From positions 1 through 48,836 of the forward strand of contig DASUHM010000059.1 of NCBI GenBank assembly GCA_036273515.1: 48,836 bases of DNA. Reading direction: 5' to 3'. Every line of letters starts with the position of its first letter. The first letter of the stretch is position 1. A program made the translations under genes and the position numbers. The notes under the pieces are model-generated. The model worked only from the letters and a program-made list of their open reading frames with translations, did not search any database and was not told the DNA's origin. Shown piece by piece: positions 267 to 30,290 of the stretch. Source of the DNA: Gaiellales bacterium (GTDB lineage Bacteria > Actinomycetota > Thermoleophilia > Gaiellales > JAICJC01).

Positions 267-1339
267 TTGCGGGCGGTCGCGAACAGGATCGCCGTCGTCG
301 CCATCGTGGCGATGAAGAGCACCCACGCCATCGCGGCGGCGTAGCCCATGTGGAAGTAGGTGAACGCCTGCTGGTAGAGCCAGACGCCGTAGAACAGCAG
401 CGACCCCTGCGGGTCGCCCGGCGACGTCCCGGCCGTCGTCGACGAGACGAACGCCTGGTCGAAGTACTGGAACCCGTCGATCACCCCGATCACGAGCGTG
501 AAGAAGATGACCGGCGTGATCATCGGCAGGGTGACGTGGCGGAACCGCTGCCACGCGTTCGCCCCCTCGATTGAGATCGCCTCGTAGAGGTCGCGGGGGA
601 CGTCGAGGAGGCCGGCCAGGTAGATCACGATCGCGTCGCCGATGCCCCAGAGGCCGAGCACGATCAGCGCCGGCTTCGCCCAGGTCGGGTCGTAGAACCA
701 GAGCGGCGCGTTCAGGCCGGGGATCGTCTCCAGGACGCGGTTCACCGGGCCTGTCGTCGGGTTCAGGAGGTAGACGAAGACGAGGGCCGCCCCGACCGTC
801 GGCGCCAGCGACGGCATGAAGAAGAGGGTGCGGTAGACGTTCACGCCCCGCTTCGGCCGGGTCAGCAGCATCGCCGTCAGCATCGCGACGACGATCCGCA
901 GCGGCACCGAGACAAGGATGATCCAGGCGGTGTTCCGCACCGCCCGCCAGAAGTACGGGTCGGACTCGTGCTGGCCGTGGATCGTCCCGATCCCGAACAT
1001 GAAGCGGTAGTTGTCGAGGCCCACCCAGCTCGGCGCCGTCAGCAGGTCGTAGTGGGTGAACGAGTAGTAGAGGCTGAGCAGCATCGGCCAGGCCGTGAAG
1101 AGCACGAAGCCGATGATCCACGGCGAGAGGAACGCGAGCACCGTGGCGTACTTGCGAAGCGCGACCCGCCGCCGCGCACGCCGGCGCTCTGCCGGCGTGC
1201 GCCCGGGGAGGGCGGCGGCCGCCGCCGGAAGGGCGACGGGATCGGCTACGGGGTCTCCCCCTGCTGGATCTGGTTGTCGATGTTGGTGTCGAGCTGTTGC
1301 AGGCCCTGCTGGAGGTTCGAGATGTTCCCCGCCTGCCAT
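236..1339 (-). CDS. Carbohydrate ABC transporter permease, MalF-type
   Basis: Inner-membrane permease pairing with the MalG-type subunit to import a sugar or oligosaccharide delivered by the adjacent lipoprotein. Six membrane segments can be followed, starting with VLAFLSPWIIGFVLFTAWPM after an Arg-rich cytoplasmic stretch. The EAA-loop signature that contacts the ATPase is seen as EAISIEGANAWQRFRHVTLP. No ATPase is encoded in the visible part, so a shared MsiK-type ATPase is likely (inference). The start is unresolved. The only ATG in frame (1339) overlaps the binding-protein gene by 94 bases and encodes an atypical Pro/Gln/His-rich leader, and no GTG or TTG lies between it and the first helix. 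The functional N-terminus is probably near 1240 with a non-standard start. Confidence 0.87.
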   Translation of the reverse strand: MAGGEHLEPPAGPATARHQHRQPDPAGGDPVADPVALPAAAAALPGRTPAERRRARRRVALRKYATVLAFLSPWIIGFVLFTAWPMLLSLYYSFTHYDLLTAPSWVGLDNYRFMFGIGTIHGQHESDPYFWRAVRNTAWIILVSVPLRIVVAMLTAMLLTRPKRGVNVYRTLFFMPSLAPTVGAALVFVYLLNPTTGPVNRVLETIPGLNAPLWFYDPTWAKPALIVLGLWGIGDAIVIYLAGLLDVPRDLYEAISIEGANAWQRFRHVTLPMITPVIFFTLVIGVIDGFQYFDQAFVSSTTAGTSPGDPQGSLLFYGVWLYQQAFTYFHMGYAAAMAWVLFIATMATTAILFATARKWVHYGGGLS

Positions 1340-2598
1340 TTGGCGTCGAAGTCGTCTGCCAATTGGGCATAGCCGGCCCCGGTTGGCAGGAGCGGCGGGT
1401 ACATGGACGACTTCGGGTTGTTCCAGATGTCCACGAACGTCTTGAACTGCGCGCCGAGGTGGAGGTCAGGCGAGTCACCCGACGCCTTCGTCGTCGGCAC
1501 GTTGCCGAGCTCGTTCGCAAGCGAGACGAGGTAGGGCGTGTCGGTGGCCAGGAACTTCACGAGATCCCACGCCTCCTGCGGGTGCTTCGAGCCCTCGGGG
1601 ATGCCGACGATCGTGCCGCCGACGCGGCCGGAGCCGTAGAGCGAGGGATCCGCCGCCGGGAAGGGCGCCGTCCCGTAAGGCAGGTTGGGGTGCTCGCGGC
1701 GGATGAAGGCCGTGCGCCACTCGCCGTCGAACACCATCGCCACCTTGCCGGTCTCGAAGGCGTTCGTGGGGTTGAACTCGGAGTTCGTGTACGTCGCGTA
1801 GAACTTCTGCAGGTTCGAGTAGCCGTACCAGTCGACGAGCGACTTCTGCCACTCGAACGCCTGCGTCCAGGCCGGATCGGTCGCGAGCTGGGCCTTGCCG
1901 CTCGAGTCGAACCACTGGGCGCCGAACGCGTGGCCGATGTCGGCGATGTCGAGCTCCTCCCACAGGTTCAGCGGGACGAAGCCGGCCACCTTGATCGAGC
2001 CGTCGGGGTTCTTCACCGTGAGCCTCTTCGCGTCGGCGGCGAGCTCGTCCATCGTCTGCGGCGGCGAGGTGATGCCCGCCTTCTTGAACATGGCGGCGTT
2101 GTAGTAGAGGCCGTACGCGTCGGTCAGCGACGGCAGCGCGCACTGCTTCCCGTCGATGTTCGTGTAGCTCTGCGTGGCCGGGGCGAAGTCCGAGATCGAC
2201 ATGTGGTCCTTCTGCATGAAGGGCTTCAGGTCTTCCCAGAGGCCGCTCGAGCAGTACTGGCCGGCGTACTGCGGGGTGAACCCGACGGCGACGTCAGGCG
2301 CATTCCCGCCCTTGATGGCGGCGATCAGGTTGGGGTCGAACGTATCCTGGTCGGGGTTCGGCTGGAGCTCGAGCTTCACATGGATCCAGGGGTACTGCTT
2401 CTCGAACGCCGCGATGCCGTTCTCGAACGGCTTCGCCTCCTCCTGGGCGTACTGGTGCCAGACGGTCAGTGTGACCGGCGAGTGCGAGCCGCTCGAACTC
2501 GCTCCGCTCGAGCCTCCGCCTCCGCCTCCGCCGCATGCGGCCGCCAGGGCGACCGCGAGCACGCCCGCGGCGCCGAGCAGTGTTCTTGCTGGTCTCAT
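1246..2598 (-). CDS. ABC transporter sugar-binding lipoprotein (family 1 extracellular solute-binding protein)
   Basis: Secreted, lipid-anchored substrate-binding protein of 450 residues, of usual family length. Residues 1-22 form a lipoprotein signal (GVLAVALAAAC), with the lipobox Cys followed by a Gly/Ser linker. The mature part has the classic start VTLTVWHQYAQEEAKPFENG and the middle motif AMVFDGEWR, typical of oligosaccharide-binding proteins. The start ATG overlaps the stop of the ROK regulator (ATGA), so the two are translationally coupled. The two permease genes follow. The sugar cannot be read from the sequence. Confidence 0.92.
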   Translation of the reverse strand: MRPARTLLGAAGVLAVALAAACGGGGGGGSSGASSSGSHSPVTLTVWHQYAQEEAKPFENGIAAFEKQYPWIHVKLELQPNPDQDTFDPNLIAAIKGGNAPDVAVGFTPQYAGQYCSSGLWEDLKPFMQKDHMSISDFAPATQSYTNIDGKQCALPSLTDAYGLYYNAAMFKKAGITSPPQTMDELAADAKRLTVKNPDGSIKVAGFVPLNLWEELDIADIGHAFGAQWFDSSGKAQLATDPAWTQAFEWQKSLVDWYGYSNLQKFYATYTNSEFNPTNAFETGKVAMVFDGEWRTAFIRREHPNLPYGTAPFPAADPSLYGSGRVGGTIVGIPEGSKHPQEAWDLVKFLATDTPYLVSLANELGNVPTTKASGDSPDLHLGAQFKTFVDIWNNPKSSMYPPLLPTGAGYAQLADDFDAKWQAGNISNLQQGLQQLDTNIDNQIQQGETP

Positions 2599-3824
2599 CT
2601 CGCCTCTCCTCCCGTCATGGCGATGGGCATCCGAGTGAACAGCGACTCCTGTGCGGCGGCGAGCGCGGTCGCGACCGCGCCGTGCAGGACGACCTCGTCT
2701 CCGAGGGCCGAGACGGCCAGGTGCGGCCGAAACGGCGAGATCCGGTGCAGCTCGCGCTCGATCGGCTCCCGCAGCAGGTCGCCGCCGTTGCCGGCGATGC
2801 CGCCGCCGAGGACGACGAGTTCGGGGTCGAGCACGGGGACGACGGCGGCGATCGCGAGCGCGATCCGGCCGGCGATGTCATCGACGACGGCGAGTGCCGC
2901 GGCCTCCCCGCGGCGGGCGGCCGCGAAGACGCTCTTCGGCGTCGCCGAGCGCAGGCCGTGGTCGCGGGCGAGCTTGCGGGCGGCGGCGGCCGAGGCGGAC
3001 TCCTCGAGCTGGCCGCGGCGGCGGTAGGCGGGGTCGTGCGGGTCGCCGGGGCCGACCGGCAGGTAGGCGATCTCGCCGGCGGCGCCCGATGCGCCCCGGT
3101 AGAGCTGGCCGCCGACCACGATCCCCAGGCCGATCCCCGTGCCGACCCAGAGGAACACGAAGCTCTCGACGCCGCGGCCGACGCCGCGCGCCCGCTCGCC
3201 CAGGGCGGCCAGGTTGACGTCGTTGTCGAACGTGACCTTGGAGCCGAGCTCGGCCGCGATCGCCTCGAGCAGGCCCTGCTTGCCGCCGGGCAGGTTGGGG
3301 CTGAGCGCGAGGTGGGTGGCGGAGGGATCGAGCACGCCCGGGAGGCCGACGGTGGCGTGGGTGATGCGCGTCCAGTCGATCCCGCGCTCCCGGGCGAGGC
3401 CGTGCGCGAGCGCGCTGATCTGGGCCACGGTGGCGGCGGTGCTGCGCTGCGCGCGCTCGTCGCGGCGGGCCCGCACCGTGCCGGTGATGTCGGCGAGCGC
3501 CGCCCGCACCCAGTGGCTGCCGACGTCGATCCCGACCACCCAGCCGGACTCGGGATTCAGGCTGTAGACGACGGCGCCCGGCCCCTTGGGTCCGCGGGCG
3601 CGGCCCGACTGGTGCACGAGCCCCGCGTCCTCGAGGCCGGAGAGGGCCTGCGAGACGGTCGGCTTGGAGAGCCCGCTGCGGCGGGCCGCCTCGGCCCGCG
3701 ACATCGCCCCGTCGCGGCGGATCAGCTCGAGCAGGCTGCGCTCGTTGATCGCCCGCAGCAGGCTCGGCGTCCCGGCCGCGAATTCGGGCGCTGCCTCACC
3801 GGAGTAAGGAAACTTTCCTGACAA
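2595..3824 (-). CDS. ROK-family transcriptional repressor
   Basis: Sugar-responsive regulator of 409 residues: an N-terminal winged helix-turn-helix (about residues 25-85, SRAEAARRSGLSKPTVSQAL) and a C-terminal sugar-kinase-like ROK domain with GIDVGSHWVRAAL, the FDNDVNLAALGE segment and WVGTGIGLGIVVGG. The Cys-rich zinc motif found in many ROK proteins is absent (the region reads YRRRGQLEE), so ligand handling may differ. It is the first gene of the operon and overlaps the binding-protein start by four bases. The start is TTG at 3824. A palindrome straddles this start codon, suggesting autorepression. Confidence 0.92.
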   Translation of the reverse strand: MSGKFPYSGEAAPEFAAGTPSLLRAINERSLLELIRRDGAMSRAEAARRSGLSKPTVSQALSGLEDAGLVHQSGRARGPKGPGAVVYSLNPESGWVVGIDVGSHWVRAALADITGTVRARRDERAQRSTAATVAQISALAHGLARERGIDWTRITHATVGLPGVLDPSATHLALSPNLPGGKQGLLEAIAAELGSKVTFDNDVNLAALGERARGVGRGVESFVFLWVGTGIGLGIVVGGQLYRGASGAAGEIAYLPVGPGDPHDPAYRRRGQLEESASAAAARKLARDHGLRSATPKSVFAAARRGEAAALAVVDDIAGRIALAIAAVVPVLDPELVVLGGGIAGNGGDLLREPIERELHRISPFRPHLAVSALGDEVVLHGAVATALAAAQESLFTRMPIAMTGGEAR

Positions 3825-7341: not shown

Positions 7342-9188
7342 CGCTCGACGGGCGCGATGACGTTGCGGGAGACGCGCCGCACGCGGCCCTCGCGCAGCGC
7401 CTCCTGCAGGGCCATCCGGAAGCGGCCCGGGCCCCAGTAGCGGGCACCGACGAGCTGCGCCAGATGGCGCCGCTCGGTGGGGCCGGTGCCGTCGAGCGTT
7501 CGCTCGATCGCCTCGATCTGCGGCTCGAGGCCGGCGGTGACGTCCGACGTCGACCCGGTGCCGGCCATCATGGGCGCGTAGAACGCGCCGCCCGGGCCGG
7601 GGCGGTAGCGGCGGCGGCCGGCCCGCTCCCACGCCTGCCGGCGCTGCGCCCGCTCGCGGATCCGACGATCGCGCTCGGCGGCCGCCCGGCGCGCCCTGGC
7701 CTCGTCGTCGTCCTCCTCGCCGGCCGTCGCCTCGCCGCCCTCGCCCTCGGCCGCCTCGGCGGTGATCGGGGTCGCGACGTCCTCGAGCGACTGCTGCTCG
7801 GCGCGCACGCCGAAGAAGATCTCGGCGATGCCGCCGACCGCCATCACGGCAGAGCCGATGTAGAACGCGGTGGCGACGTCGCCGCGCACCCCGGTGGCGA
7901 TCAGATGCGCGAACAGGAGCGGCCCGACGATGCCGCCCGCCGCCGTGCCGAGGGCGTAGAAGAACGCGATCGCGAGCGCGCGCGTCTCCATCGGGAAGAT
8001 CTCGCTCACCGTCAGGTAGGCGGCGCTGGCGCCGGCCGACGCGAGGAAGAACGTGACGACGATGCCGAGCTCGAACCACCACTCGGACGCGATCGTCCCG
8101 TTCGCGAAGAGGTACGCCAGGACGGCACCCGAGATCGCCGCCCCGAGGTACGTGATCGTGATCATCGGCTTGCGGCCGACGGTGTCGAAGAGCCGGCCGA
8201 GGACGAGCGGTCCAGCGAAGTTGCCCGCCGCGAAGATGATCAGGAACACCGGCACGAACGCGGCCGAGACGCCGAAGAACGTCGAGAACAGGATGCCCAG
8301 GTTGAAGGTGATGCCGTTGTAGATGAACGCCTGGCCGACGAAGAGGGCGAGACCGAGCACCGCGCGGCGCGGGTACCTGCCGAACCCGGTGCGGGCGATC
8401 TCGCGGAACGGGATCGTCTTGCGCTGCTCGACCTTGATGCTCTCGTCGGGCTCGTCCAGGTCCTGCCCGGTCTCGCGGGCCACGTCCTGCTCGATCTTCG
8501 ACACGATCGCCTCGGCTTCGTCCTCGCGGCCGTGGATGAAGAGCCAGCGTGGGCTCTCGGGGATGCTGCGTCGCACGAGCATGATCGCGAGGCCGAGCAC
8601 GGCGCCGACCCCGAAGCACAGCCGCCAGCCCACGTCGGTCGCGAAGACGGACGAGAGGAAGAAGATCGCCGCCGCCGATCCGGCCATCGCGCCGAACCAG
8701 TACGAGCCGTTGATGATCAGGTCGACCCGGCCCCGGACGCGGGCGGGGATCAGCTCGTCGATCGCCGAGTTGATGGCCGCGTACTCGCCGCCGATGCCCG
8801 CCCCGGTCAGGAAGCGGAAGAGATAGAAGTACCAGGCCGCGAACGCGAAGGCCGTCGCGACGGTGGCGAGGATGTAGACGGCCAGCGTGATCATGAAGAG
8901 CTTCTTGCGCCCGAACCGGTCGGTCAGCTGGCCGAAGAAGAGCGCCCCCAGGCAGGCGCCGGCGACATACATCGCCGCCGCCACGCCGATCTGGCCCGTC
9001 GTCAGCTCGATGCCGCTGCCCTTCACCGTCAGCTGGGTGGCGACCGAGCCGACCATCGTCACCTCGAGCCCGTCCAGCACCCAGACCGTGCCGAGGCCGA
9101 TCACGACCATCCAGTGGAACCGGGCCCATGGCAGGCGGTCGAGCCGGGCGGGGATGTTGGTCTCGAGCGTGTGTGCGTCGGCGCTCAT
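7338..9188 (-). CDS. MFS transporter, sugar-porter-like, with long C-terminal cytoplasmic extension
   Basis: A 616-residue major facilitator. Residues about 25-455 carry twelve membrane helices with family motifs GQLTDRFGRKKLFM, FRFLTGAGIGGEY, PESPRWL, LFDTVGRKP and SEIFPMETRALAIAF, as in metabolite:H+ symporters related to sugar porters. A charged central loop lies between helices 6 and 7. After helix 12 comes an unusual tail of about 150 residues: first acidic (EDVATPITAEAAEGEGGEA), then Arg-rich, then a possibly folded end (VGARYWGPGRFRMALQEALR). Substrate unknown. The start is ATG 9188; the gene is divergent from the small Cys protein at 9254. Confidence 0.9.
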   Translation of the reverse strand: MSADAHTLETNIPARLDRLPWARFHWMVVIGLGTVWVLDGLEVTMVGSVATQLTVKGSGIELTTGQIGVAAAMYVAGACLGALFFGQLTDRFGRKKLFMITLAVYILATVATAFAFAAWYFYLFRFLTGAGIGGEYAAINSAIDELIPARVRGRVDLIINGSYWFGAMAGSAAAIFFLSSVFATDVGWRLCFGVGAVLGLAIMLVRRSIPESPRWLFIHGREDEAEAIVSKIEQDVARETGQDLDEPDESIKVEQRKTIPFREIARTGFGRYPRRAVLGLALFVGQAFIYNGITFNLGILFSTFFGVSAAFVPVFLIIFAAGNFAGPLVLGRLFDTVGRKPMITITYLGAAISGAVLAYLFANGTIASEWWFELGIVVTFFLASAGASAAYLTVSEIFPMETRALAIAFFYALGTAAGGIVGPLLFAHLIATGVRGDVATAFYIGSAVMAVGGIAEIFFGVRAEQQSLEDVATPITAEAAEGEGGEATAGEEDDDEARARRAAAERDRRIRERAQRRQAWERAGRRRYRPGPGGAFYAPMMAGTGSTSDVTAGLEPQIEAIERTLDGTGPTERRHLAQLVGARYWGPGRFRMALQEALREGRVRRVSRNVIAPVER

Positions 9189-20706: not shown

Positions 20707-22335
20707 TCATTCCGGCGGCAGCTCGCGCATCGCGAGGTCGATGTCGATCGACGACGACCGCCGCACGCCGCGCGCGATCAGGTAGACGACGGGCCCGGCC
20801 GCCAGCACGAGCACCAGGGTGGAGACGCTCTGGACGCTGAACTTCCCGAACACGCTCGAGTGCGTGACGATCAGCCCGATCACGATCAGTGCGAGGATGG
20901 TCGTGAGCCCGCCGGCGATCGCCGACTTCGGGATCCCGGCCAGCCGGTCGACGTCGTTCGTGCCCGGCTTCAGGATCAGCTCCGGGCGCCGGTACGGCAG
21001 GAGCAGCGCCGAGACCGCGCCGGCGAGCAGGATCAGCGCGACGAACAGGCTCAGGTTCGCGACGATGTTCGCCAGGTTCACGTAGGTGGCCAGGATCGAG
21101 AACCCGATGCCGCCCGCCAGGGCGATGCACGTGGCGATCAGCGGCGTGCCCGTGCGCTCGTCGATCTTCGCCACGGACACCGGCAGCAGCCGGTCGAAGG
21201 CGAGCGCGAAGAGGACGCGGGTGACGACGGCGACGAAGGCCAGGTCGACGGCCAGCTCGGCGCACGGGACGGCGATCGAGAACAGGATCTTCGTGATCGG
21301 GTCGCCGGAGAGGACGAGCCCGTAGCCGAGGCCGCCCGCCTGGGCGGACAGGTTCGAGATCTTGCCGTAGGCGTCGCCGTTCACGGCGTTCAGGTTCGCC
21401 TGGGCCTGCATGAAGTCGAGGCCGACCCGCCAGCGCAGGAGCATCCAGATCCCCACCCAGACGACGACCAGCAGGACGATGCTGATGACCGACGCCCAGA
21501 CGTACGTGCGTCCCGGCCGCTTCAGCTCGCCGCCGACGTAGTACGAGTAGAGCACGCCGTTGTAGTTCAGCACCATGAACGGCACGACCAGCAGCGACGC
21601 CGTCAGGCTGATGCCGGTGACCACCCCGTTCGCCTTGGCGGCCGAGAGCACCGCGTTGTAGGCGTTGGGATGCTTGCTGAAGCTGCCGAACGACGACACG
21701 AAGTCGCTGTGGCTGTGGGCGAGCAGGATGATGCCGAGGGCGACGAACGCGAGCAGCTGGATCACGACGAGGCCGAGGATGATCTGGGCGACCCGGCGCA
21801 GCGGCAGCAGCGAGAGCAGCCCGACGATCAGGAGCATGCCGACGCAGATGAGCGCGATCGCGCCCTTGCTGGTCACGTGGTTCGCGCCGGCCGCGATGGT
21901 GGAGCTCGAGAACGCGTCGCCGAGGCCGGTCAGGGCGAACGGCATGAACGCGGCGGTGAACTGCGCGTTCGCGGCCAGGATGTAGGTGAACGCGACGGCG
22001 ACGCTGACGCCGACCATCGCCCCGAGCACCGGCGAGATCACGCGCGAGACGTAGACGTACTCGCCGCCCGCGCGCGGGATCGCCTGGAGCAGGTAGCGGT
22101 AGGCGAACATGCCGACGAACCAGATGCCGGCCGCGAGCAGCAGCGGCAGGATCATGTCGGGGTGGCTGAAGCTCGTCAGGCCGGCGCTGAAATTGATGAA
22201 GGTGTTGACGACGGCGACCGACGCCAGCGCGATGGCTGTCGCGGCCGGAATTCCGAGCTCACGCACAAGCCCCGAGGACTGGCGTGTGAAGAGCCCACTG
22301 CTTGCCCCTGCCTCGGGCGTGCCCGTCGTGCTCAT
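20707..22335 (-). CDS. APC-superfamily amino acid permease
   Basis: A 542-residue transporter with about twelve membrane helices. Helix 1 is LGIPAATAIALASVAVVNTF, and the loop YLLQAIPRAGGEYVYVSRVI is the family motif for substrate and gate residues. VPFMVLNYNGVLYSYYVGGELKRPGR lies in the mid region, with AFDRLLPVSVAKIDERTGTP towards the C-terminus. ATG 22335 follows GGAGGGG. A GGAACGTTCC palindrome sits 20-33 bases upstream, identical in core to that before the adjacent dehydrogenase, so LacI control is likely. The substrate may be an amino acid or an organic cation. Confidence 0.9.
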   Translation of the reverse strand: MSTTGTPEAGASSGLFTRQSSGLVRELGIPAATAIALASVAVVNTFINFSAGLTSFSHPDMILPLLLAAGIWFVGMFAYRYLLQAIPRAGGEYVYVSRVISPVLGAMVGVSVAVAFTYILAANAQFTAAFMPFALTGLGDAFSSSTIAAGANHVTSKGAIALICVGMLLIVGLLSLLPLRRVAQIILGLVVIQLLAFVALGIILLAHSHSDFVSSFGSFSKHPNAYNAVLSAAKANGVVTGISLTASLLVVPFMVLNYNGVLYSYYVGGELKRPGRTYVWASVISIVLLVVVWVGIWMLLRWRVGLDFMQAQANLNAVNGDAYGKISNLSAQAGGLGYGLVLSGDPITKILFSIAVPCAELAVDLAFVAVVTRVLFALAFDRLLPVSVAKIDERTGTPLIATCIALAGGIGFSILATYVNLANIVANLSLFVALILLAGAVSALLLPYRRPELILKPGTNDVDRLAGIPKSAIAGGLTTILALIVIGLIVTHSSVFGKFSVQSVSTLVLVLAAGPVVYLIARGVRRSSSIDIDLAMRELPPE

Positions 22336-22354: not shown

Positions 22355-22368
22355 ATGGAACGTTCCAG
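22355..22368. promoter_or_regulatory. LacI-type operator 1
   Basis: ATGGAACGTTCCAG, with the perfect core TGGAACGTTCCA (22356-22367), lies upstream of the APC permease. Next to it is the TAGCTT -10-like hexamer for minus-strand transcription (complement near 22374-22379). The central CG palindrome is typical of LacI-family operators. Identical core to operator 2. Confidence 0.7.
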
Positions 22369-22419
22369 GGCGAAGCTACCAGGCGCACGTGACGGTTGCA
22401 ACCCTCCCGTTCGGCGGTG

Positions 22420-23454
22420 TCACGCTGCGTGCGCTGCGGGCGGCGTCCAGGGCCAGTCCGGCCCGACCTCGAGCGGCTCTCCGCCGCTTGCGCTGGCCCG
22501 CGCGGCGACGGCGATGGCGACGGCGAAACGGTCGTCGGTGAGCGTCGCGTTCGGCGTCTCCTCGCCCCGGCAGGCGGCGCCGAAGTCGTCCATCTGGGCC
22601 TGATAGGCGGCGGCGAACCGGTCGCGGCAGTCGGCCGGGAAGCGCGGCTCCATGGCGGGCCCGAGCACGGTGACGCCGGTGCCGGTGGCGGCCTGGGCGA
22701 GAACGACCGAGCCGTCCGGGCCGATCACCTCGCAGCGGATCTCCATCCCGAGGGTCGAGGTGCGCGACAGATGTGTGGTGGCGACGGCGGCGCCGAGGCC
22801 GATGGTGATGTGGGCGTTGTCGAGGCCGGACTCGAGGTAGACCGGGTTCTGCACGAGCGCGTAGGCGGTCGTCGGGTCGGCGTCGAGCAGCCATCGGGCC
22901 GTGTCGAAGTCGTGGACGCCGAGGTCCATGATGAGGCCGCCGGCGGGGCCGTCGTCGGCGCTCGGCGGGAAGTCCTCGCGGCTGGCCAGCTGGACGGCGA
23001 ACGGCGTGCCGATCGCACCGGCGGCGACCGCCCCCGCCACCTCGCGGAAGCCGGGATCGTGGCGGCGGTGGTAGGCCACGCGCACCACCGAATCGGGGTG
23101 CGCGGCGGCGGCCGCCTCGATGCGGGCGTGGTCGGCGAGCGAGATCGCCCCCGGCTTCTCGAGCAGCAGGTGCTTCCCCGCCTCGAGCACCCGCACGGCA
23201 TGGTCGGCATGGTCGGCGGTGCGGGTGCAGACGACGATCGCGTCCACGTCGTCGCTTCCGATCAGCTCGTCCATGGTCAGCAGGCGCACGGCCGGGTCGA
23301 GGGCGCCGACGCGGTCGCGGATGGCGCGGCCGCGCGCCGAGGCGACGCCGACGAGCTCCACCGCCTCGCTGCGCATGGCGCAGCCGCGGTGCACCGCCGA
23401 GATGAACCCCGTTCCGGCGATGCCGAGCCGGATCGGTGCAGGACGAGCTGGCAC
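22420..23454 (-). CDS. Gfo/Idh/MocA-family dehydrogenase
   Basis: A 344-residue NAD(P)-dependent sugar or polyol dehydrogenase. The Rossmann start is IRLGIAGTGFISAVHRGCAM, the family motif EKP occurs in GKHLLLEKPGAISLADHA, the DLGVHDFDTARWL segment carries the substrate-site Asp-His pair, and VAYHRRHDPGFREV is the other catalytic-domain marker. Myo-inositol 2-dehydrogenase-like enzymes share these, but the exact substrate cannot be read. GTG start behind GGGAGG. Divergent from the LacI gene, with operator 2 in the shared promoter. Confidence 0.9.
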   Translation of the reverse strand: MPARPAPIRLGIAGTGFISAVHRGCAMRSEAVELVGVASARGRAIRDRVGALDPAVRLLTMDELIGSDDVDAIVVCTRTADHADHAVRVLEAGKHLLLEKPGAISLADHARIEAAAAAHPDSVVRVAYHRRHDPGFREVAGAVAAGAIGTPFAVQLASREDFPPSADDGPAGGLIMDLGVHDFDTARWLLDADPTTAYALVQNPVYLESGLDNAHITIGLGAAVATTHLSRTSTLGMEIRCEVIGPDGSVVLAQAATGTGVTVLGPAMEPRFPADCRDRFAAAYQAQMDDFGAACRGEETPNATLTDDRFAVAIAVAARASASGGEPLEVGPDWPWTPPAAHAA

Positions 23455-23469
23455 GGAGCCTCCCTGTCG

Positions 23470-23483
23470 ATGGAACGTTCCAT
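23470..23483. promoter_or_regulatory. LacI-type operator 2
   Basis: Perfect 14-base palindrome ATGGAACGTTCCAT between the divergent dehydrogenase and LacI genes. On the minus strand a TAGCGT -10-like hexamer (23485-23490 complement) immediately precedes it, the same arrangement as at operator 1. It can regulate the dehydrogenase and the repressor's own gene. Confidence 0.75.
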
Positions 23484-23548
23484 GACGCTACCAGAGCCGG
23501 GTCGGCGTCCGGACTACACTTTCACGCCCCGATGCCACGAGAGATCAG

Positions 23549-24616
23549 GTGACCGCCGTTCCCCCAACCGACGACCATGCCGGCGCGCGGCGGCGGCGGG
23601 ACGTGACGATCTTCGACGTCGCCCGGGCGGCGGGCGTCTCGAAGTCGACGGTCTCGAACGTCGTCCGCGGCGTCGACGAGGTGTCGGCCGCCACCCGCCA
23701 GCGCGTGCTCGAGGCGATCGAGTCGCTGAACTACACGCCGAACGGCATCGCCCGCCAGTTCGTGCGCCGCCGCACCACGATGATCGGCGTGCTCGTCGGC
23801 GACCTCGGCAACGCCTACCATGCCCAGCTGGCGCGGGTGGTCGAGCGGGCGCTCTTCCGGGCCGGCTACACGGCGGTGTTCTGCAACATCGAGGGCGAGG
23901 AGGAGCTCGCGGTCGCCGGTGTCGACGCGCTCCTCGAGCAGCGCGTGGCCGGCTTCCTGCTGCTCGCCTCCATCGAGCGCACGCCGCAGCTGCCGGCGTC
24001 GCTTCGGCGCACCGGAGTGCCCACGGTCATCATCGGCCTGCGCCAGGAGTGGACCGACTCCGTGGGGCCGCACGACCGCGAGGGCGGCCGGCTGGCGACG
24101 CAGCACCTGGTCGACCTCGGCCACCGCCGCATCGGCTACGTGCGCACGGCGATGGTCGAGGCCGGCGGCGACCGCGCCCGCCACGCCGGATACCGGGCCG
24201 TGCTCACCGGCGCGGGGTTCGAGCCGCCGCCGGGGATGCGGTGGGATCAGGGCGCGGACACGATCCGGGTCGGCCGCACCGAGATGTCGCTGCGCGACGC
24301 GCTGCGCGGGCCGGACGCGCCCACGGCGGTCTTCGTCTGGAACGACTTCGCCGCGATCGGGCTGATCGAGGCCTGCGAGGCGGCGGGGATCGGCGTGCCC
24401 CGCGACCTGTCGGTGGTCGGGTTCGACGACATCGCGGTCGCCGGCCTCGCCCGCATCTCCCTGACGACCGTCGCCCAGCCGCTCGACTTCCAGGCGGAGC
24501 GGGCGGTCGAGATCCTGCTCGCGCGCATGGACGGCCGCGCGCCCGAGAAGCCGCGCCACCTGACGGTGCCGGTGGAGCTGCGGGTGCGGGGGTCGACCGC
24601 GGCGCCGCGCCGCTAG
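23549..24616 (+). CDS. LacI-family transcriptional repressor
   Basis: A 355-residue regulator: the helix-turn-helix at about residues 18-65 reads VTIFDVARAAGVSKSTVSNV, followed by the hinge LNYTPNGIARQFVRRRTTMI. The periplasmic-binding-like sensor domain includes IGVLVGDLGNAYHAQLARVV, VFVWNDFAAIGLIEACEAAG and LSVVGFDDIAVAGLARISLT. GTG 23549. It is flanked by the three GGAACGTTCC-type palindromes and almost certainly controls the dehydrogenases and APC permease around it. Confidence 0.93.
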   Translation: MTAVPPTDDHAGARRRRDVTIFDVARAAGVSKSTVSNVVRGVDEVSAATRQRVLEAIESLNYTPNGIARQFVRRRTTMIGVLVGDLGNAYHAQLARVVERALFRAGYTAVFCNIEGEEELAVAGVDALLEQRVAGFLLLASIERTPQLPASLRRTGVPTVIIGLRQEWTDSVGPHDREGGRLATQHLVDLGHRRIGYVRTAMVEAGGDRARHAGYRAVLTGAGFEPPPGMRWDQGADTIRVGRTEMSLRDALRGPDAPTAVFVWNDFAAIGLIEACEAAGIGVPRDLSVVGFDDIAVAGLARISLTTVAQPLDFQAERAVEILLARMDGRAPEKPRHLTVPVELRVRGSTAAPRR

Positions 24617-24630
24617 GCTGCACCCGAGGC

Positions 24631-24644
24631 TTGGAGCGTTCCAG
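24631..24644. promoter_or_regulatory. LacI-type operator 3
   Basis: TTGGAGCGTTCCAG, one base off the perfect TGGAACGTTCCA of operators 1 and 2, lies 14-27 bases before the start of the next dehydrogenase gene. Presumed repressor site within the leader. Confidence 0.6.
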
Positions 24645-24657
24645 GGAGGCGCGGAGA

Positions 24658-25677
24658 ATGCGGGTGCTGTTGTGCGGCGCGGGCCAGGTCGGCTCGCTAC
24701 ACGCGGGGAATCTCGTCCGGGCTTCGGGCGCATCCGAGGTGCTGATCGCGGACGTCGACGCGGCCCGCGCGGAGGCGCTCGCGCTCCAGGCCGGCGCCCG
24801 CCCGGCGCCGGCGGACGACGCGTTCTCGGCGCAGCCCGACGCCGTGGTGGTTGCGGCGGCGACGCCCGCCCATGCCGGCCTCGTGCGCGCCTGCATCGCC
24901 CGCGGGATCCCCTGCTTCTGCGAGAAGCCGCTCTCGGCCGAGGTGGACGAGACCGTCGAGCTGGTCCGTGAGGTGGAGGCGGCCGGCCTCTCGGTGCAGG
25001 TCGGGTTCATGCGCCGCTTCGACCCCGCCCTGCGCGAGCTGCGCGAGCTGATCGCCGGCGGGGATCTCGGCCGTGTGCACACGCTCCACGTCGCCTCGCA
25101 CGATCACGAGCCGCCGCCGGAGGAGTACGTGGCCCGCTCCGGCGGGATGTTCCGCGACCAGCTCATCCACGACTTCGACATGATCCGCTGGGTCACCGGC
25201 GCCGAGGTGCGCTCCGTCTACGCGGCCGGCGCGGTGCGGGCGATCGAGTTTGCCGAGCGCTACGGCGACGTCGACACGTGCGCCCTCGTGCTCGAGCTCG
25301 ACGGCGGGACTCTCGTGCTCGTCGCCGGCACACGCGAGGACGGCCGCGGCGAGGACGTCCGCATCGAGGCGATCGGGTCGAAGGAGAGCGCGGCGGCCGG
25401 CATGAACGCGCGCACGCCGCTTCGGCTGCTCGACCCGATCGGGGTGGCCGATGGCTACACGCCGTACGGCAGCGCGTTCGACCGCTTCGCCGCCGGCTAC
25501 GCGGGCGAGATCGACCACTTCCTCGAGGTCGCCGCCGGCCGGGCGCAGAGCGCCTGCACCCCCCGCGACGCGCTCAACACGCTGCTGGTCGCCGAGGCGG
25601 CCGAGCGGTCACGCCTGGCCGGCGCACCGGTCAGCGTCCGCCACGCCGACGAGCTTCTCGGTGAACAAAGGGTCTGA
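24658..25677 (+). CDS. Gfo/Idh/MocA-family dehydrogenase, inositol-dehydrogenase-like
   Basis: A 339-residue NAD-dependent oxidoreductase: MRVLLCGAGQVGSLHAGNLV, then the EKP motif in IPCFCEKPLSAEVDETVELV, FMRRFDPALRELRELIAGGD, and RDQLIHDFDMIRWVTGAEV with the catalytic Asp-His-type site. FDRFAAGYAGEIDHFLEVAA is the usual C-terminal helix. ATG 24658 with GGAGG upstream and a LacI-type operator in the leader. The stop TGA falls inside a degenerate GGGTCTGACCCC element. Probably oxidises a polyol or sugar together with its neighbours. Confidence 0.92.
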   Translation: MRVLLCGAGQVGSLHAGNLVRASGASEVLIADVDAARAEALALQAGARPAPADDAFSAQPDAVVVAAATPAHAGLVRACIARGIPCFCEKPLSAEVDETVELVREVEAAGLSVQVGFMRRFDPALRELRELIAGGDLGRVHTLHVASHDHEPPPEEYVARSGGMFRDQLIHDFDMIRWVTGAEVRSVYAAGAVRAIEFAERYGDVDTCALVLELDGGTLVLVAGTREDGRGEDVRIEAIGSKESAAAGMNARTPLRLLDPIGVADGYTPYGSAFDRFAAGYAGEIDHFLEVAAGRAQSACTPRDALNTLLVAEAAERSRLAGAPVSVRHADELLGEQRV

Positions 25678-25690
25678 CCCCGGTTATTCA
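25662..25690. repeat. GGGGTCAGACCCC-type element, degenerate copy 2
   Basis: Centre AGGGTCTGACCCC with outer TGAA and TTCA arms. The stop codons of both convergent dehydrogenase genes (plus at 25675-25677, minus at 25684-25686) lie inside it. Less perfect than copy 1, but the same outer TGAA...TTCA frame and core. Confidence 0.6.
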
Positions 25691-26793
25691 GGCTTGCCCG
25701 CCAGCCTGTACATGTCCGTCAGGACGGCCTGGTCGATGCGGGCCTGCTCCGGCGGGGTGCGGCACTCCTCCGCGCCGAGCATGCAGCGGTGGAAGTGCAC
25801 CAGCTCGCGCTGGTAGGCCTCGTCGTAGGAGTCGAACGCGTTCACGTCGCGGCCCTCCGTCCCCGCCCGTGACACCGCGTACGTGGTCGGCGCCTGGCGC
25901 AGCCACGGCGACGGGATCGAGAGCGTGCGGACCGAGTCGTCGAAGTAGAGCGTGATCCGCTCGTCGTACTCGTGCAGCGCGACCAGCTGGATCCAGGCGC
26001 TGTCCCAGCGGGCGCCGTTTCGCAGCCGTACCGAGCCGCTCAGCGCCTCGCCGCCCGCCCAGGCGTCGCCGGCGATCACCGGCGCGGGCAGCGGCTCGCC
26101 CATCCGCGCGAGCATCCCGTGCACCATGTTCACCTGGTGGACGAGGCTCCCCAGGAAGCCGCCGGAGAAGGCCTTGACCGCGTCGACCGCGTCCGTGCCG
26201 ACCGCCGCCCGCACCTGGGCGGCCTCGTCGGCCCGGCCCCCCTCGATCACGTCGGCCGGCACGTCGCTGCCGCGGGCGAGATCCTCCGGCCCGAAGTACG
26301 GCCCGAACTCCGGGTCGTGGACGAGCACGCTGATGTAGCGCAGCGTCTCGGTCGAGTCGGGCAGCTCCGAGACGAGCCGCTCGTACGCGACGTCGAAGCG
26401 GTTGTTGTAGGCGACCTGCACCACCCGCCCGGCCCGGTCGCGGGCGGCGACGATGGCGTCGGCGTCGGCCGGGACGATGCAGAGCGGCTTCTCGCAGAGG
26501 ACGTGCAGGCCGGCGTCGAGCGCCGCCAGCACGGTGCTCGCATGGGTCGCGTTGGGCGCGCAGATGACGACGGCGTCGAGCCGGCCGACCGCGACCGCCT
26601 CCTCGGCGGTGGCAACCCGGTGCGGGATCCCGAAGCGGTCGCCGACCCGGTCGCGCACCGACGGGCTCGGGTCCGCGACGACGGCGAGCTCGAAGCGGTC
26701 GCGCAGGAGCGCCAGGTGGGGAAGGTGCATCGCCTGGGCGATCAGCCCGGCCCCGATCACCCCCACCCGCTTGCGATCGCTCCCGGCCGTCAC
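25684..26793 (-). CDS. Gfo/Idh/MocA-family dehydrogenase
   Basis: A 369-residue oxidoreductase: KRVGVIGAGLIAQAMHLPHL, the EKP motif in GLHVLCEKPLCIVPADADAI, QVAYNNRFDVAYERLVSELP, and a domain with FSGGFLGSLVHQVNMVHGML. It is longer than the two dehydrogenases nearby and carries an insert around EFGPYFGPEDLARGSDVPAD. GTG 26793. It is convergent with the previous gene and divergent from the sugar ABC importer, so it may act on the imported sugar (inference). Confidence 0.9.
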   Translation of the reverse strand: MTAGSDRKRVGVIGAGLIAQAMHLPHLALLRDRFELAVVADPSPSVRDRVGDRFGIPHRVATAEEAVAVGRLDAVVICAPNATHASTVLAALDAGLHVLCEKPLCIVPADADAIVAARDRAGRVVQVAYNNRFDVAYERLVSELPDSTETLRYISVLVHDPEFGPYFGPEDLARGSDVPADVIEGGRADEAAQVRAAVGTDAVDAVKAFSGGFLGSLVHQVNMVHGMLARMGEPLPAPVIAGDAWAGGEALSGSVRLRNGARWDSAWIQLVALHEYDERITLYFDDSVRTLSIPSPWLRQAPTTYAVSRAGTEGRDVNAFDSYDEAYQRELVHFHRCMLGAEECRTPPEQARIDQAVLTDMYRLAGKPE

Positions 26794-26887: not shown

Positions 26888-28102
26888 ATGGGGAACTCAC
26901 GCAGACGGTTGCTGGGCCTTGGCCTGGCCGGCGTCATCCTGACGGTGGCCGCGGGCTGCGGCTCGTCGGGCGGCAGCTCGAGCGGAGGCGGCTCGGGCGC
27001 CAAGGTGAACGTGCCGAACCTGAGCGCCTCGGCGTTCAACGTGGACTTCACCGAAATGCAGAAGCTCAAGGGCCTTGCCTCCGAGGGCAAGGGCATGATC
27101 GGCGTCCTGCTTCCCGACACCACGTCGTCGGCGCGGTACGTCGAGTTCGACGCGCCGTACCTGAAGGACGCGTTCCAGGCGGCCGGGCTGAACTCGAGCG
27201 AGTACAAGATCGACAACGCCCAGGGCAGCACGAGCACGATGCAGCAGCAGGCGGAGGCGGACATCACCGCCGGCGCGTCGGTGCTGCTCGTCGACCCGCT
27301 CGACCCGGGCTCCGGCGCCGCCATCGAGTCGAACGCCGAGTCCAAGGGCGTGAAGGTGATCGACTACGACCGCCTCGTCACCGGCGGCCCCGCCGATCGC
27401 TACTACGTCAGCTTCAACAACGTCCAGGTCGGCAAGCTGATCGGCCAGGGCGAGGTGAGCTGCATCCAGTCGTGGGGCGTGAAGAACCCGAACATCCTCG
27501 TGATGGACGGCGACCCCACGGACAACAACGCGAAGCTGTTCGCCCAGGGCTACAACGGCGTGCTCGCTCCGCACTTCGCGGACAACTCCTACGTGAAGGT
27601 CGGCGAGCCGGCCGGCACGTGGGACCCGCCGACCGCGGCGACGACGTTCGAGCAGCAGTTCACCGCCCACAAGAACATCAACGCGGTCATCACGCCGAAC
27701 GACGACAACGCGAACGCGGTCATCTCCGTCCTCCAGAAGGACAAGATCCCGCCGAAGACGTTCCCGACCACCGGCCAGGACGCCTCGCCCTCGGGGCTGC
27801 AGAACATCCTCAAGGGCTACCAGTGCGGCACGGTCTACAAGCCCATCTACGAGGAGGCCCAGGCCGCTGCGGCACTCGCGCTCTACCTCCGCGCGGGCCT
27901 GAAGCCGCCGTCCACGCTGGTGAACTCCGAGACGATGGACACGACGCTGAACAAGAACATCGCGTCCGTGTACACGGTCCCGCACTGGGTGACGACCTCC
28001 AACATGGCCTCGACCGTCGTGAAGGACAAGGCCGTTCAGGTGTCGCAGCTGTGCGCCGGAGCCGCCCTGCAGAAGGCCTGCCAGGCGGCCGGGATCAGCT
28101 GA
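26888..28102 (+). CDS. Sugar ABC transporter binding lipoprotein (XylF/FrcB-like)
   Basis: A 404-residue lipoprotein: signal LGLGLAGVILTVAAGCGSSG with lipobox Cys near residue 23, then a Peripla_BP_4-type fold with GMIGVLLPDTTSSARYVEFD, ADITAGASVLLVDPLDPGSG and GVKVIDYDRLVTGGPADRYY, typical of pentose and xylose binders. NAVITPNDDNANAVISVLQK and TTGQDASPSGLQNILKGYQ complete the second lobe. ATG 26888 follows GGGAGGGG. First gene of a binding protein, ATPase, permease operon. Confidence 0.92.
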   Translation: MGNSRRRLLGLGLAGVILTVAAGCGSSGGSSSGGGSGAKVNVPNLSASAFNVDFTEMQKLKGLASEGKGMIGVLLPDTTSSARYVEFDAPYLKDAFQAAGLNSSEYKIDNAQGSTSTMQQQAEADITAGASVLLVDPLDPGSGAAIESNAESKGVKVIDYDRLVTGGPADRYYVSFNNVQVGKLIGQGEVSCIQSWGVKNPNILVMDGDPTDNNAKLFAQGYNGVLAPHFADNSYVKVGEPAGTWDPPTAATTFEQQFTAHKNINAVITPNDDNANAVISVLQKDKIPPKTFPTTGQDASPSGLQNILKGYQCGTVYKPIYEEAQAAAALALYLRAGLKPPSTLVNSETMDTTLNKNIASVYTVPHWVTTSNMASTVVKDKAVQVSQLCAGAALQKACQAAGIS

Positions 28103-28167
28103 GAATCCGGCCTGGCGCGCCGGGCCGCCCCTGACGGCGGCCCGGCGCTCCGGCGGGTGAGGCCACG

Positions 28168-28977
28168 ATGAACGACACTGCGAACGATCCGATGGCGAGC
28201 GGCGGCACCGACGGGCCGCTGCTGCGCCTGCAGCGCGTCTCGAAGAACTTCGGCCCCGTGCAGGCCCTCGTCGACGTCGACTTCGACATCCGCGCCGGCG
28301 AGGTGACGGCGCTCGTCGGCGACAACGGCGCGGGCAAGTCGGTGCTGATCAAGTGCATCGCCGGCATCCACTCGCCCGACCACGGCGAGCTCGTGTGGGA
28401 GGGCCGGCCGGTACGGATCCGCACTCCGCGCGACGCCGCCCTGCTCGGCATCGACACCGTCTATCAGGACCTCGCGCTCTGCAACAACCTCGACATCGTC
28501 CAGAACATGTACCTGGGCCGCGAGCGGATGCAGGGGCTCGTGATGGACGAGGAGGCGATGGAGACCGAGGCGGGCAAGACGCTCGCGAGCCTCGCGGTGA
28601 CGACTGTGCGGTCGATCCGCCAGCCGGTCGCGTCGCTTTCCGGCGGCCAGCGCCAGTCCGTCGCGATCGCCAAGGCCGTGCTGTGGAACTCCAAGCTCGT
28701 GATCATGGACGAGCCGACCGCCGCGCTCGGCGTCGCCCAGACGCGGATGGTGCTCGACCTCGTCCGCCGCCTGGCCGACCAGGGCCTCGCGGCCATGATC
28801 GTCTCGCACAACATGAACGACGTCTTCGAGGTCGCCGACACGATCGCGGTGCTCCGGCTCGGGCGGATGGTGGCGGTGCGGCCCGCATCCGAGCTCGACC
28901 CCCAGATCGCGGTCGACCTGATGACGACCGGCAAGTCGACCAGGACGCCGAAGGCGGCGTCCTCCGGGGAGGGCTGA
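28168..28977 (+). CDS. Sugar ABC transporter ATP-binding protein, single-domain (FrcA-like)
   Basis: A 269-residue ATPase. Walker A is GDNGAGKS, the Q-loop region is DTVYQDLALCNNLDIVQNMY, the signature is LSGGQRQ, Walker B is VIMDEPTAAL and the H-loop region is IVSHNMNDVF. Most xylose and ribose importers use a tandem two-domain ATPase of about 500 residues; this one has a single domain as in FrcA-type fructose systems, and would function as a dimer. It ends five bases before the permease gene. Confidence 0.92.
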   Translation: MNDTANDPMASGGTDGPLLRLQRVSKNFGPVQALVDVDFDIRAGEVTALVGDNGAGKSVLIKCIAGIHSPDHGELVWEGRPVRIRTPRDAALLGIDTVYQDLALCNNLDIVQNMYLGRERMQGLVMDEEAMETEAGKTLASLAVTTVRSIRQPVASLSGGQRQSVAIAKAVLWNSKLVIMDEPTAALGVAQTRMVLDLVRRLADQGLAAMIVSHNMNDVFEVADTIAVLRLGRMVAVRPASELDPQIAVDLMTTGKSTRTPKAASSGEG

Positions 28978-28982
28978 TCCAG

Positions 28983-30290
28983 ATGTCGCAGGTCGACGAT
29001 CCCGCCCGCGGTGAGGGCGCCGCCCCCGACGAGGAGCTGACCGAGGCGGCGGCACGCAAGGCCGACCTGGCCGTCCCGGCCGAGATCACGGCCGGATCGG
29101 TCGGCGAGTACCTGCGTTCCTCCGTCGCCCGGATGAGGGCAGGCGAGAGTGGCGTGTTGCCCGTCGTGGGCGGCCTGATCGTGATCTCGATCCTGTTCCA
29201 GTCGCTCAACTCGAACTTCCTCACCGCCCAGAACCTGGTCAACCTGCTCGTGCAGGGCGCGGTGTTCTGTCTGCTGGCGATGGGTGAGGTGTTCGTGCTG
29301 CTGCTGGGCGAGATCGACCTCTCGATCGGCTTCGTCGCCGGCGTCGGCGGTGTGATCATGGCCGACACCGTCGGGCCGAACTACGGCTGGCCGTGGTGGG
29401 TCGCGATCGGCGCCGCGCTGGTCGCCTGCGCCGCGATCGGCCTGATCCAGGGGCTGATCATCACCCGCATCGGGTTGCCGTCGTTCGTCGTCACGCTGGC
29501 CGGCCTCCTGTTCTGGCAGGGGATGCTGCTGCACATCCTCGGGAACGGCGGAACCTTCCCGGTCAACGAGTCGATCATCAACGACATCACGAGCTCGAAC
29601 CTCACGAACACCGAGGGCTGGATCGTGCTCGTCGTGATCCTGGCGATCTATGCCGCCCTGGTCTGGAGGCGCGACGCCAAGCGCCGGGCGGCGGGCCTGG
29701 TGGCGCCGCCGCCGACCGTGACGTTGCTGAAGATCGCCGCCGCGGTCGCCGCCGGCGTCGCGCTCGTGCTGCTCTGCAACGCCGACCGTGGCATCCTCGA
29801 GCCGATCTCGGGCGTCCCCTGGGTCGTCCTGCTCGTGCTCGGCGTGCTGGCGGTGTGGACGTTTCTGCTCGGGCGGACGAAGCTCGGCCGCTACCTGTAC
29901 GCGATCGGCGGTAGCGCCGAGGCCGCTCGCCGCGCCGGGATCAGCGTGGCCTGGGTGCGCACCTCCGCCTTCGTGCTGTGCTCCCTCACGGCCGGCATCG
30001 CCGGCGTCGTCTACACGTCGCGGCTGCGCTCGATCTCGACCACGGTCGACGGCGGCACCCTCGTCCTCTACGGGATCGCGGCCGCGGTGATCGGCGGCAC
30101 GAGCCTGATGGGCGGCCGCGGCAAGGCGCTCCACGGCGTGCTCGGCGGCATCGTGATCGCGGCGATCGACAACGGGATGGGCCTGCTCGGCTACACCGCC
30201 GCGACCAAGTACATGGTGACGGCGTTCGTCCTGCTGGTGGCGGTGACGATCGACGCGCTCACCCACCGCGGCCGGGTCGCCGGCACCTGA
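28983..30290 (+). CDS. Sugar ABC transporter permease (XylH/FrcC-like)
   Basis: A 435-residue BPD_transp_2-type permease. A hydrophilic N-terminus (residues 1-55) precedes about ten membrane helices. Markers are FLTAQNLVNLLVQGAVFCLL, VLLLGEIDLSIGFVAGVGGV, RIGLPSFVVTLAGLLFWQGM and RYLYAIGGSAEAARRAGISV, and the end has GTSLMGGRGKALHGVLGGIV. It is longer than ribose permeases owing to an insert with an extra helix pair in the middle, as in XylH. Likely imports a pentose or related sugar. Confidence 0.92.
   Translation: MSQVDDPARGEGAAPDEELTEAAARKADLAVPAEITAGSVGEYLRSSVARMRAGESGVLPVVGGLIVISILFQSLNSNFLTAQNLVNLLVQGAVFCLLAMGEVFVLLLGEIDLSIGFVAGVGGVIMADTVGPNYGWPWWVAIGAALVACAAIGLIQGLIITRIGLPSFVVTLAGLLFWQGMLLHILGNGGTFPVNESIINDITSSNLTNTEGWIVLVVILAIYAALVWRRDAKRRAAGLVAPPPTVTLLKIAAAVAAGVALVLLCNADRGILEPISGVPWVVLLVLGVLAVWTFLLGRTKLGRYLYAIGGSAEAARRAGISVAWVRTSAFVLCSLTAGIAGVVYTSRLRSISTTVDGGTLVLYGIAAAVIGGTSLMGGRGKALHGVLGGIVIAAIDNGMGLLGYTAATKYMVTAFVLLVAVTIDALTHRGRVAGT

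Follow-up and report, generated by a model that had tools for sequence, protein, structure and literature searches.

A predicted LacI-family operator at permease and dehydrogenase genes of a Gaiellales bacterium suggests a satellite inositol-type regulon

INTRODUCTION

The core iol operon of Bacillus subtilis is controlled by a separate repressor, IolR, of a family other than LacI. A side branch of inositol use in the same species is served by the LacI-family protein IolQ (DegA), which represses the adjacent scyllo-inositol dehydrogenase gene iolX (PMC5504672). This is the closest described system to the locus studied here, which lies on a 48,836-nucleotide (nt) stretch of DNA from a Gaiellales bacterium (DASUHM010000059.1; hereafter the window, the entire contig C59 of the 98-contig, 4.07 Mb assembly G000). 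In the window, a lacI gene stands among genes for an APC-type permease and Gfo/Idh/MocA dehydrogenases. The initial annotation had read three near-identical palindromes at these genes as a compact LacI regulon for one compound, perhaps an amino-polyol or inositol-like substrate.

The arrangement of IolQ and iolX, a LacI-family repressor beside the dehydrogenase gene of a side branch, resembles the one proposed here. However, the IolQ operator is AGAAARCGCTTKCK, compared with TGGAACGTTCCA in the window, IolQ does not bind the yisR–iolQ promoter, and its regulon as described holds no permease (PMC5504672), whereas a permease gene carries a site here. A comparative survey of LacI regulons lists seven orthologous groups of LacI-type IolR (PMC4052901). 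According to this survey they are LacI-family inositol regulators, and even palindromes with a central CG are typical of LacI-family operators, as here; most sites in the survey lie 30–140 base pairs (bp) before the start codon, whereas those of the window are closer (14–20 nt). IpsA of Corynebacterium is also of the LacI type and is released from DNA by myo-inositol but, unlike the regulator proposed here, it is described as acting on genes for inositol synthesis and the cell wall, in part by activation (PMC3899939). The actinobacterial repressors CebR2 and CelR have operators of the GGAACGTTCC type, as here, but their reported consensus has a third G (TGGGAACGTTCCCA) and their targets are cellobiose transport genes (PMC9953190, PMC3377646). 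In the literature searched by sequence, as far as its text was available, TGGAACGTTCCA was not found; GGAACGTTCC was, among others in the sites of cellobiose repressors, which carry an additional G.

RESULTS

A rare palindrome before three genes

The 12-bp palindrome TGGAACGTTCCA occurs exactly before the permease gene (O1) and the dehydrogenase gene gfo1 (O2), and with one change, as TGGAGCGTTCCA, before the second dehydrogenase gene, gfo2 (O3), just as the initial annotation had reported. In coding direction, each site lies directly 5′ of the ribosome-binding region of its own gene (Table 1). Perfect 12-bp palindromes are abundant in this DNA, with 51 in the window, and hence the weight rests on recurrence of the same palindrome at promoters. 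When up to two mismatches were allowed, the window held three matches compared with 0.77 expected, and 5 of 100 shuffles also reached three, which taken alone is a modest test of chance. In the whole 4.07 Mb genome, the exact 12-mer has two copies, both in the window, and Markov models of order 1–3 built from the window predict 0.05–0.15, so that exact copies are 13–37 times more frequent than expected. This genome-wide search, which had been suggested as a check, showed no recurrence at unrelated genes.

Outside the exact copies, one-mismatch places number three in the genome, one being O3. Another, GGGAACGTTCCA on contig C11 (21526–21537), lies 32 nt 5′ of another IolG-like Gfo/Idh gene, whose product is 46% identical over 149 amino acids (aa) to that of a gene adjoining an exact TGGAACGTTCCA in genome G092. 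We regard this as a credible further operator site that had been overlooked; the idea of a LacI regulon is supported by comparison, but with the C11 site the regulon is not fully compact. The last place (C23:26336) was ruled out as an operator, since it sits within a long reading frame, which by eye only we take to resemble NuoF.

The TAGCkT boxes that had been placed just before the first two palindromes are present, TAGCTT 5 nt before O1 and TAGCGT 2 nt before O2, and TTGCAA at 22396–22401 can be read 17 nt upstream of the TAGCTT box of the permease gene. A sigma-70 consensus scan of the region found no promoter, and as promoter elements these −10-like boxes are suggestive. Their proximity would put O1 and O2 at about the start of transcription, and this fits repression by obstruction.

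The window LacI and its relatives

The lacI product combines an N-terminal LacI helix-turn-helix with a periplasmic-binding-protein-like effector domain, which places it in the LacI family, and it scores below the cut-off of every named NCBIfam subfamily. All three sites are even palindromes with a central CG near the putative targets, in line with what is given as a general rule for LacI-family regulators (PMC4052901). Lys-Ser occupies the first two specificity positions in the recognition helix of this protein. A Pfam search found seven LacI helix-turn-helix genes in the genome, with the helices SKSTVSN (window), SAQTVSN, SVGTVSN, HPGTVSR, STATAAR, STAGVSY and AMSSVSR; Lys-Ser is present in that of the window alone.

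Among the matches listed from 151 genomes, the nearest LacI proteins with an SKSTVS helix are those of G068 (47.6% identity), G112 (43–45%), G095 (42%) and G102 (40%), and a 41% identical LacI of G120 has a different helix; matches of <180 columns were left out of this helix comparison. A search of named genomes yielded five loci, with a short match at 42% and otherwise full-length or near-full-length LacI proteins at 31–33%. When a profile of the five SKSTVS proteins was run over the 129 genomes of the order, these five scored 524–562 bits and the next protein 273. In a tree of 67 LacI proteins, the five form one clade (100/96), which holds the iol-locus LacI proteins of G112 and G095, a kinship expected of an IolR-like repressor. 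Its sister (99/97) consists of the iol-cluster LacI of this genome, on contig C90, and that of G003. We rejected a single group comprising every LacI encoded next to iol genes, since the tree separates several iol-locus types.

In G112, the lacI gene with the SKSTVS helix lies inside an iol operon, iolD–iolE–lacI, at a locus with iolB (263.3 bits, cut-off 205), iolD (927.4, cut-off 715) and an iolE-like gene. The exact TGGAACGTTCCA precedes the iolE-like gene, and TGGAACGCTCCA, the same one-change variant as O3, lies in the iolB–iolD gap. The corresponding gap of G115 also contains TGGAACGCTCCA, the iolD–iolB gaps of G095 and G102 contain CGGAACGTTCCA, and an exact site lies between two divergent Gfo/Idh genes in G092. 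A second LacI type, with a helix ending in STASRAL and a clade of its own, stands beside iolB–iolD in the iol loci of G095 (L159), G102 (L164) and G115 (L157).

Association of helix and operator across the phylum

Searching 396 genomes of the phylum added no LacI to the SKSTVS clade; 10 of the 17 next-best LacI loci have Lys-Ser helices. We then compared 83 distinct LacI proteins, after dropping matches with <250 aligned residues or a gapped helix and merging near-identical rows. The exact palindrome lies within 1.5 kb of 6 of the 16 Lys-Ser LacI genes and of none of the 67 others (Fisher 2e-5), and with the window and G112 removed the figures are 4/14 and 0/67 (p 6e-4), although these values overstate independence because the genomes are related. 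At up to one mismatch within the same distance, the counts are 8/16 and 2/67, with the loci of G102 and G068 cut by contig ends. The proposed tie between the sites and the adjacent LacI, as far as genome comparison can tell, is supported by this association.

Eight of the ten Lys-Ser loci were widened (L272 and L274 were left out). All eight contain a site with at most one change and six an exact one, and the 18 sites in total compare with 0.3 in simulations (10 per locus). The G360 locus has three exact sites, which flank iolG (395.3 bits, cut-off 355) and an iolE-like gene; iolB (312.0) and iolD (924.9) are next to these genes. In G230 (L285, C111), an unusually dense array of five exact TGGAACGTTCCA surrounds iolD (835.1), at 7935, 10159, 16183, 16400 and 17426 of an 18-kb iol locus. 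Sites of G203 and G228 fall in the gap between iolD (844.7 and 848.9) and an IolG-like gene (313.6 and 316.4, below 355). At iol genes, the operator with at most one change was seen in at least eight other genomes. Genes were called simply, from open frames and GC position, and their starts are uncertain. A Lys-Ser LacI (helix SKSTVSK) of G407 (L287, C84) is accompanied by two exact sites and a near copy, TGGAACGATCCA, at 2311, 2343 and 6329.

Across 27 sites, GGA and TCC never vary, and the second position from the centre holds A or, rarely, G; this near-invariance is partly built in, as the sites were preselected at up to one mismatch. According to the recognition code of Camas et al. (PMC2978694), a pair of residues in the helix determines a pair of bases in the operator. 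The pairing of Lys-Ser with GG seen here is a rule of this type, in LacI proteins that for the most part lack the Arg of the main group of that study.

Some candidates were set aside. TGGAGCGCTCCA is too widespread to be counted as the same operator, as at least 58 of the 151 genomes match TGGARCGYTCCA, mostly as TGGAGCGCTCCA, and the 10-mer GGARCGYTCC is too frequent for a regulon marker (15–41 per genome among the matches listed). Other exact copies in relatives were not counted: inside a gene in G099, inside a small predicted frame in G033 and over the start codon of a small frame in G010.

The core iol cluster of the genome

The core iol cluster lies on C90 (L149, C90:25000–43020) and contains, among the matches listed, iolB (266.9 bits) and iolD (883.9), both above cut-off, iolC at 299.7 against a cut-off of 300, and an iolE-like gene. 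It has its own LacI, with helix SVGTVSNVLH. TGGAACGTTCCA is absent from this cluster; a single TGAAACGTTTCA (L149 6095) occurs there instead, ~25 nt 5′ of the iolC frame as cut here. The iol cluster of G003, a genome of the same family, has the same palindrome as TTGAAACGTTTCAA (L161 8236) and a LacI with helix SVATVSNVLH. TGAAACGTTTCA is likely to be the operator of the C90 LacI. None of the core genes iolB, iolC, iolD and iolE shares the locus or the operator of the window LacI; they lie on C90 with another LacI. Hence, we class the window LacI as IolR-like in its way of working, but not as the genome's IolR.

Genes around the sites

The product of 20707–22335 is a member of the APC amino acid permeases, and no NCBIfam model exceeds its own cut-off on it. 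Inositol dehydrogenase motifs are described as the Lys of EKP, Asp-x3-His and motif III, GFM/NRRY/FD (PMC9603128). Read by eye, gfo2 has the EKP Lys, Asp-x3-His as DQLIH and motif III as GFMRRFD, and its nearest solved chains are 3ezy (a dehydrogenase) and 4hkt and 3euw (both named inositol dehydrogenases). In gfo1, EKP and DLGVH are present and motif III is absent, again by eye, and 1,5-anhydrofructose reductases are among the nearest solved relatives.

Table 1. Predicted operators, promoter-like boxes and genes in the window
Feature	Position	Strand	Description
APC-type amino acid permease, 542 aa (P0002)	20707–22335	−	Pfam AA_permease 63.3 bits (cut-off 24.6) and AA_permease_2 45.7, both above cut-off
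Operator O1 (predicted), TGGAACGTTCCA	22356–22367	none	20 nt 5′ of permease ATG (22335, −); one of two exact genome copies
−10-like box TAGCTT	22373–22378	−	Preceded by TGG (extended −10 type); 5 nt before O1; read from sequence
gfo1, Gfo/Idh/MocA dehydrogenase, 344 aa (P0003)	22420–23454	−	Pfam; IolG best NCBIfam model, TIGR04380 172.9 bits, under cut-off 355
Operator O2 (predicted), TGGAACGTTCCA	23471–23482	none	16 nt 5′ of gfo1 GTG (23454, −); 66 nt 5′ of lacI GTG (23549); one of two exact genome copies
−10-like box TAGCGT	23485–23490	−	Preceded by TGG; 2 nt before O2; read from sequence
lacI, LacI-family repressor, 355 aa (P0001)	23549–24616	+	Pfam LacI PF00356 70.9 bits (cut-off 27), Peripla_BP_3 PF13377 122.1 (cut-off 26.5); recognition helix SKSTVSNVVR
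Operator O3 (predicted), TGGAGCGTTCCA	24632–24643	none	Inside 41-nt lacI–gfo2 gap; 14 nt 5′ of gfo2 ATG (24658, +)
gfo2, IolG-like Gfo/Idh/MocA dehydrogenase, 339 aa (P0004)	24658–25677	+	IolG best NCBIfam model, TIGR04380 265.2 bits, under cut-off 355
Third Gfo/Idh gene (P0005)	25684–26793	−	Neighbour without operator; Pfam N-terminal domain; 43–59% relatives in iol loci; regulon membership putative
Sugar ABC transporter	26888–30290	+	Neighbour without operator; binding protein 26888–28102, ATPase 28168–28977, permease in frame ending 30290; regulon membership putative

Downstream of gfo2, and beyond the account of the initial annotation, lie the third dehydrogenase gene and the sugar ABC transporter, which are divergent from each other. 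The third dehydrogenase has no clear catalytic Asp-x3-His pattern, and the ATPase of the transporter is short (269 aa). A separate sugar locus occupies 1246–3824 of the window, where the gene of a ROK-family regulator is followed on the same strand by that of an ABC sugar-binding protein.

DISCUSSION

Our data suggest that the window probably holds a satellite inositol-type LacI regulon that serves to import an inositol isomer or derivative and to carry out its first oxidation, with the core iol pathway under a sister repressor. In this scheme, a dimer of LacI (23549–24616) would bind at O1 and O2, where the palindrome TGGAACGTTCCA is exact, and at its one-change form in O3. As these sites lie about where transcription should start, the bound protein would block RNA polymerase at the permease gene, gfo1 and gfo2, and expression of lacI may be damped as well. 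The repressor would leave the DNA in response to an inositol-type ligand; the permease and the dehydrogenases would then import and oxidise the compound, and the product may enter the core pathway encoded on C90, which would be under its own LacI with a different likely operator. What the sequences show are the sites, their rarity, the gene families, the LacI tree and the association of helix, operator and iol genes, whereas binding, repression, ligand, reaction and entry of the product into the core pathway are what we infer.

Several observations weigh against this scheme. The closest relative of the window LacI, that of G068, has the same helix, yet no site with up to three mismatches occurs in its locus, where the contig ends upstream, and no TGGARCGYTCCA appears among the matches listed for the genome. 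By profile, two genomes of the same genus have no SKSTVS LacI; none was found in G115 either, a genome that is 70% complete, and the sites at the iol loci of G095, G102 and G115 could belong to the STASRAL-type LacI. Half of the Lys-Ser proteins (8/16) have no site of at most one change within 1.5 kb. In G407, no iol gene was recognised in the 8.5-kb contig, and another substrate is possibly placed there under the same type of operator. The permease has no close relative in the 151 genomes, the best-scoring other protein being 28% identical. Moreover, none of the three dehydrogenases with a site reaches the 355 bits of the IolG model TIGR04380 (gfo2 265.2, gfo1 172.9, the C11 gene 162.3), and at motif V gfo2 has RGE aligned to the YGY of 3ezy, 4hkt and 3euw, neither the YGY of the myo/chiro group nor a positive last residue.

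Some of these features would suit a LacI regulon for a non-inositol compound, such as a sugar, another cyclic polyol or an aromatic precursor, in which helix and operator would stem from an inositol repressor and the ligand would be a new one. Instead of core iol genes, the lacI of G068 has as neighbours genes for an amidohydrolase, a Rieske protein and a TIM-barrel protein, the score of gfo1 and its resemblance to 1,5-anhydrofructose reductases are in the same direction, and the core iol cluster has a LacI of its own. However, IolG is the best match of gfo1, gfo2 and the C11 dehydrogenase alike, and essentially the same operator stands at iol genes in the other genomes noted above; we therefore consider a changed ligand unlikely, while giving it more room than any other alternative. 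More doubtful is a regulon for an inositol that contains nitrogen, such as an inosamine or a similar aminocyclitol, which the amino-acid-type permease would import and a dehydrogenase with Glu in place of the substrate-binding Tyr would oxidise, the Lys-Ser helix and GGAACGTTCC then being a general inositol-repressor pair of the phylum. Of the substrates first suggested for this locus, the inositol-like one gains from the iol clusters that share the site, but the amino-polyol is without direct support.

The palindromes might also belong to another regulator, a different LacI member or a global one, with the adjacent LacI controlling something else. CebR2 and CelR, which are cello-oligosaccharide repressors, reportedly use sites like TGGGAACGTTCCCA (PMC9953190, PMC3377646), and some of the iol loci with sites of this kind also encode the second LacI type. 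Against this, none of the other six LacI genes of the genome has a Lys-Ser or STASRAL helix, the sites lie on both sides of the window lacI, and exact sites accompany Lys-Ser helices in 6/16 cases but other helices in 0/67, all of which makes a foreign regulator very improbable. Chance recurrence with no regulatory role is the least credible explanation of all: the two-mismatch count exceeds shuffles mildly and 12-bp palindromes are common here, but the exact copies, at 13–37 times expectation, occur in this genome only at gene starts, and the palindrome is kept at iol promoters elsewhere.

LacI-type inositol regulators are already known, and the window would add a further example, well supported by comparison but fairly ordinary. 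Of wider use may be the Lys-Ser/TGGAACGTTCCA rule, which ties an operator to a LacI subfamily across many genomes of one phylum and would make inositol regulons readable from genomes. In addition, a single genome with two sister inositol-type repressors and apparently different operators would lend itself well to studying the divergence of a repressor and its operator after duplication.

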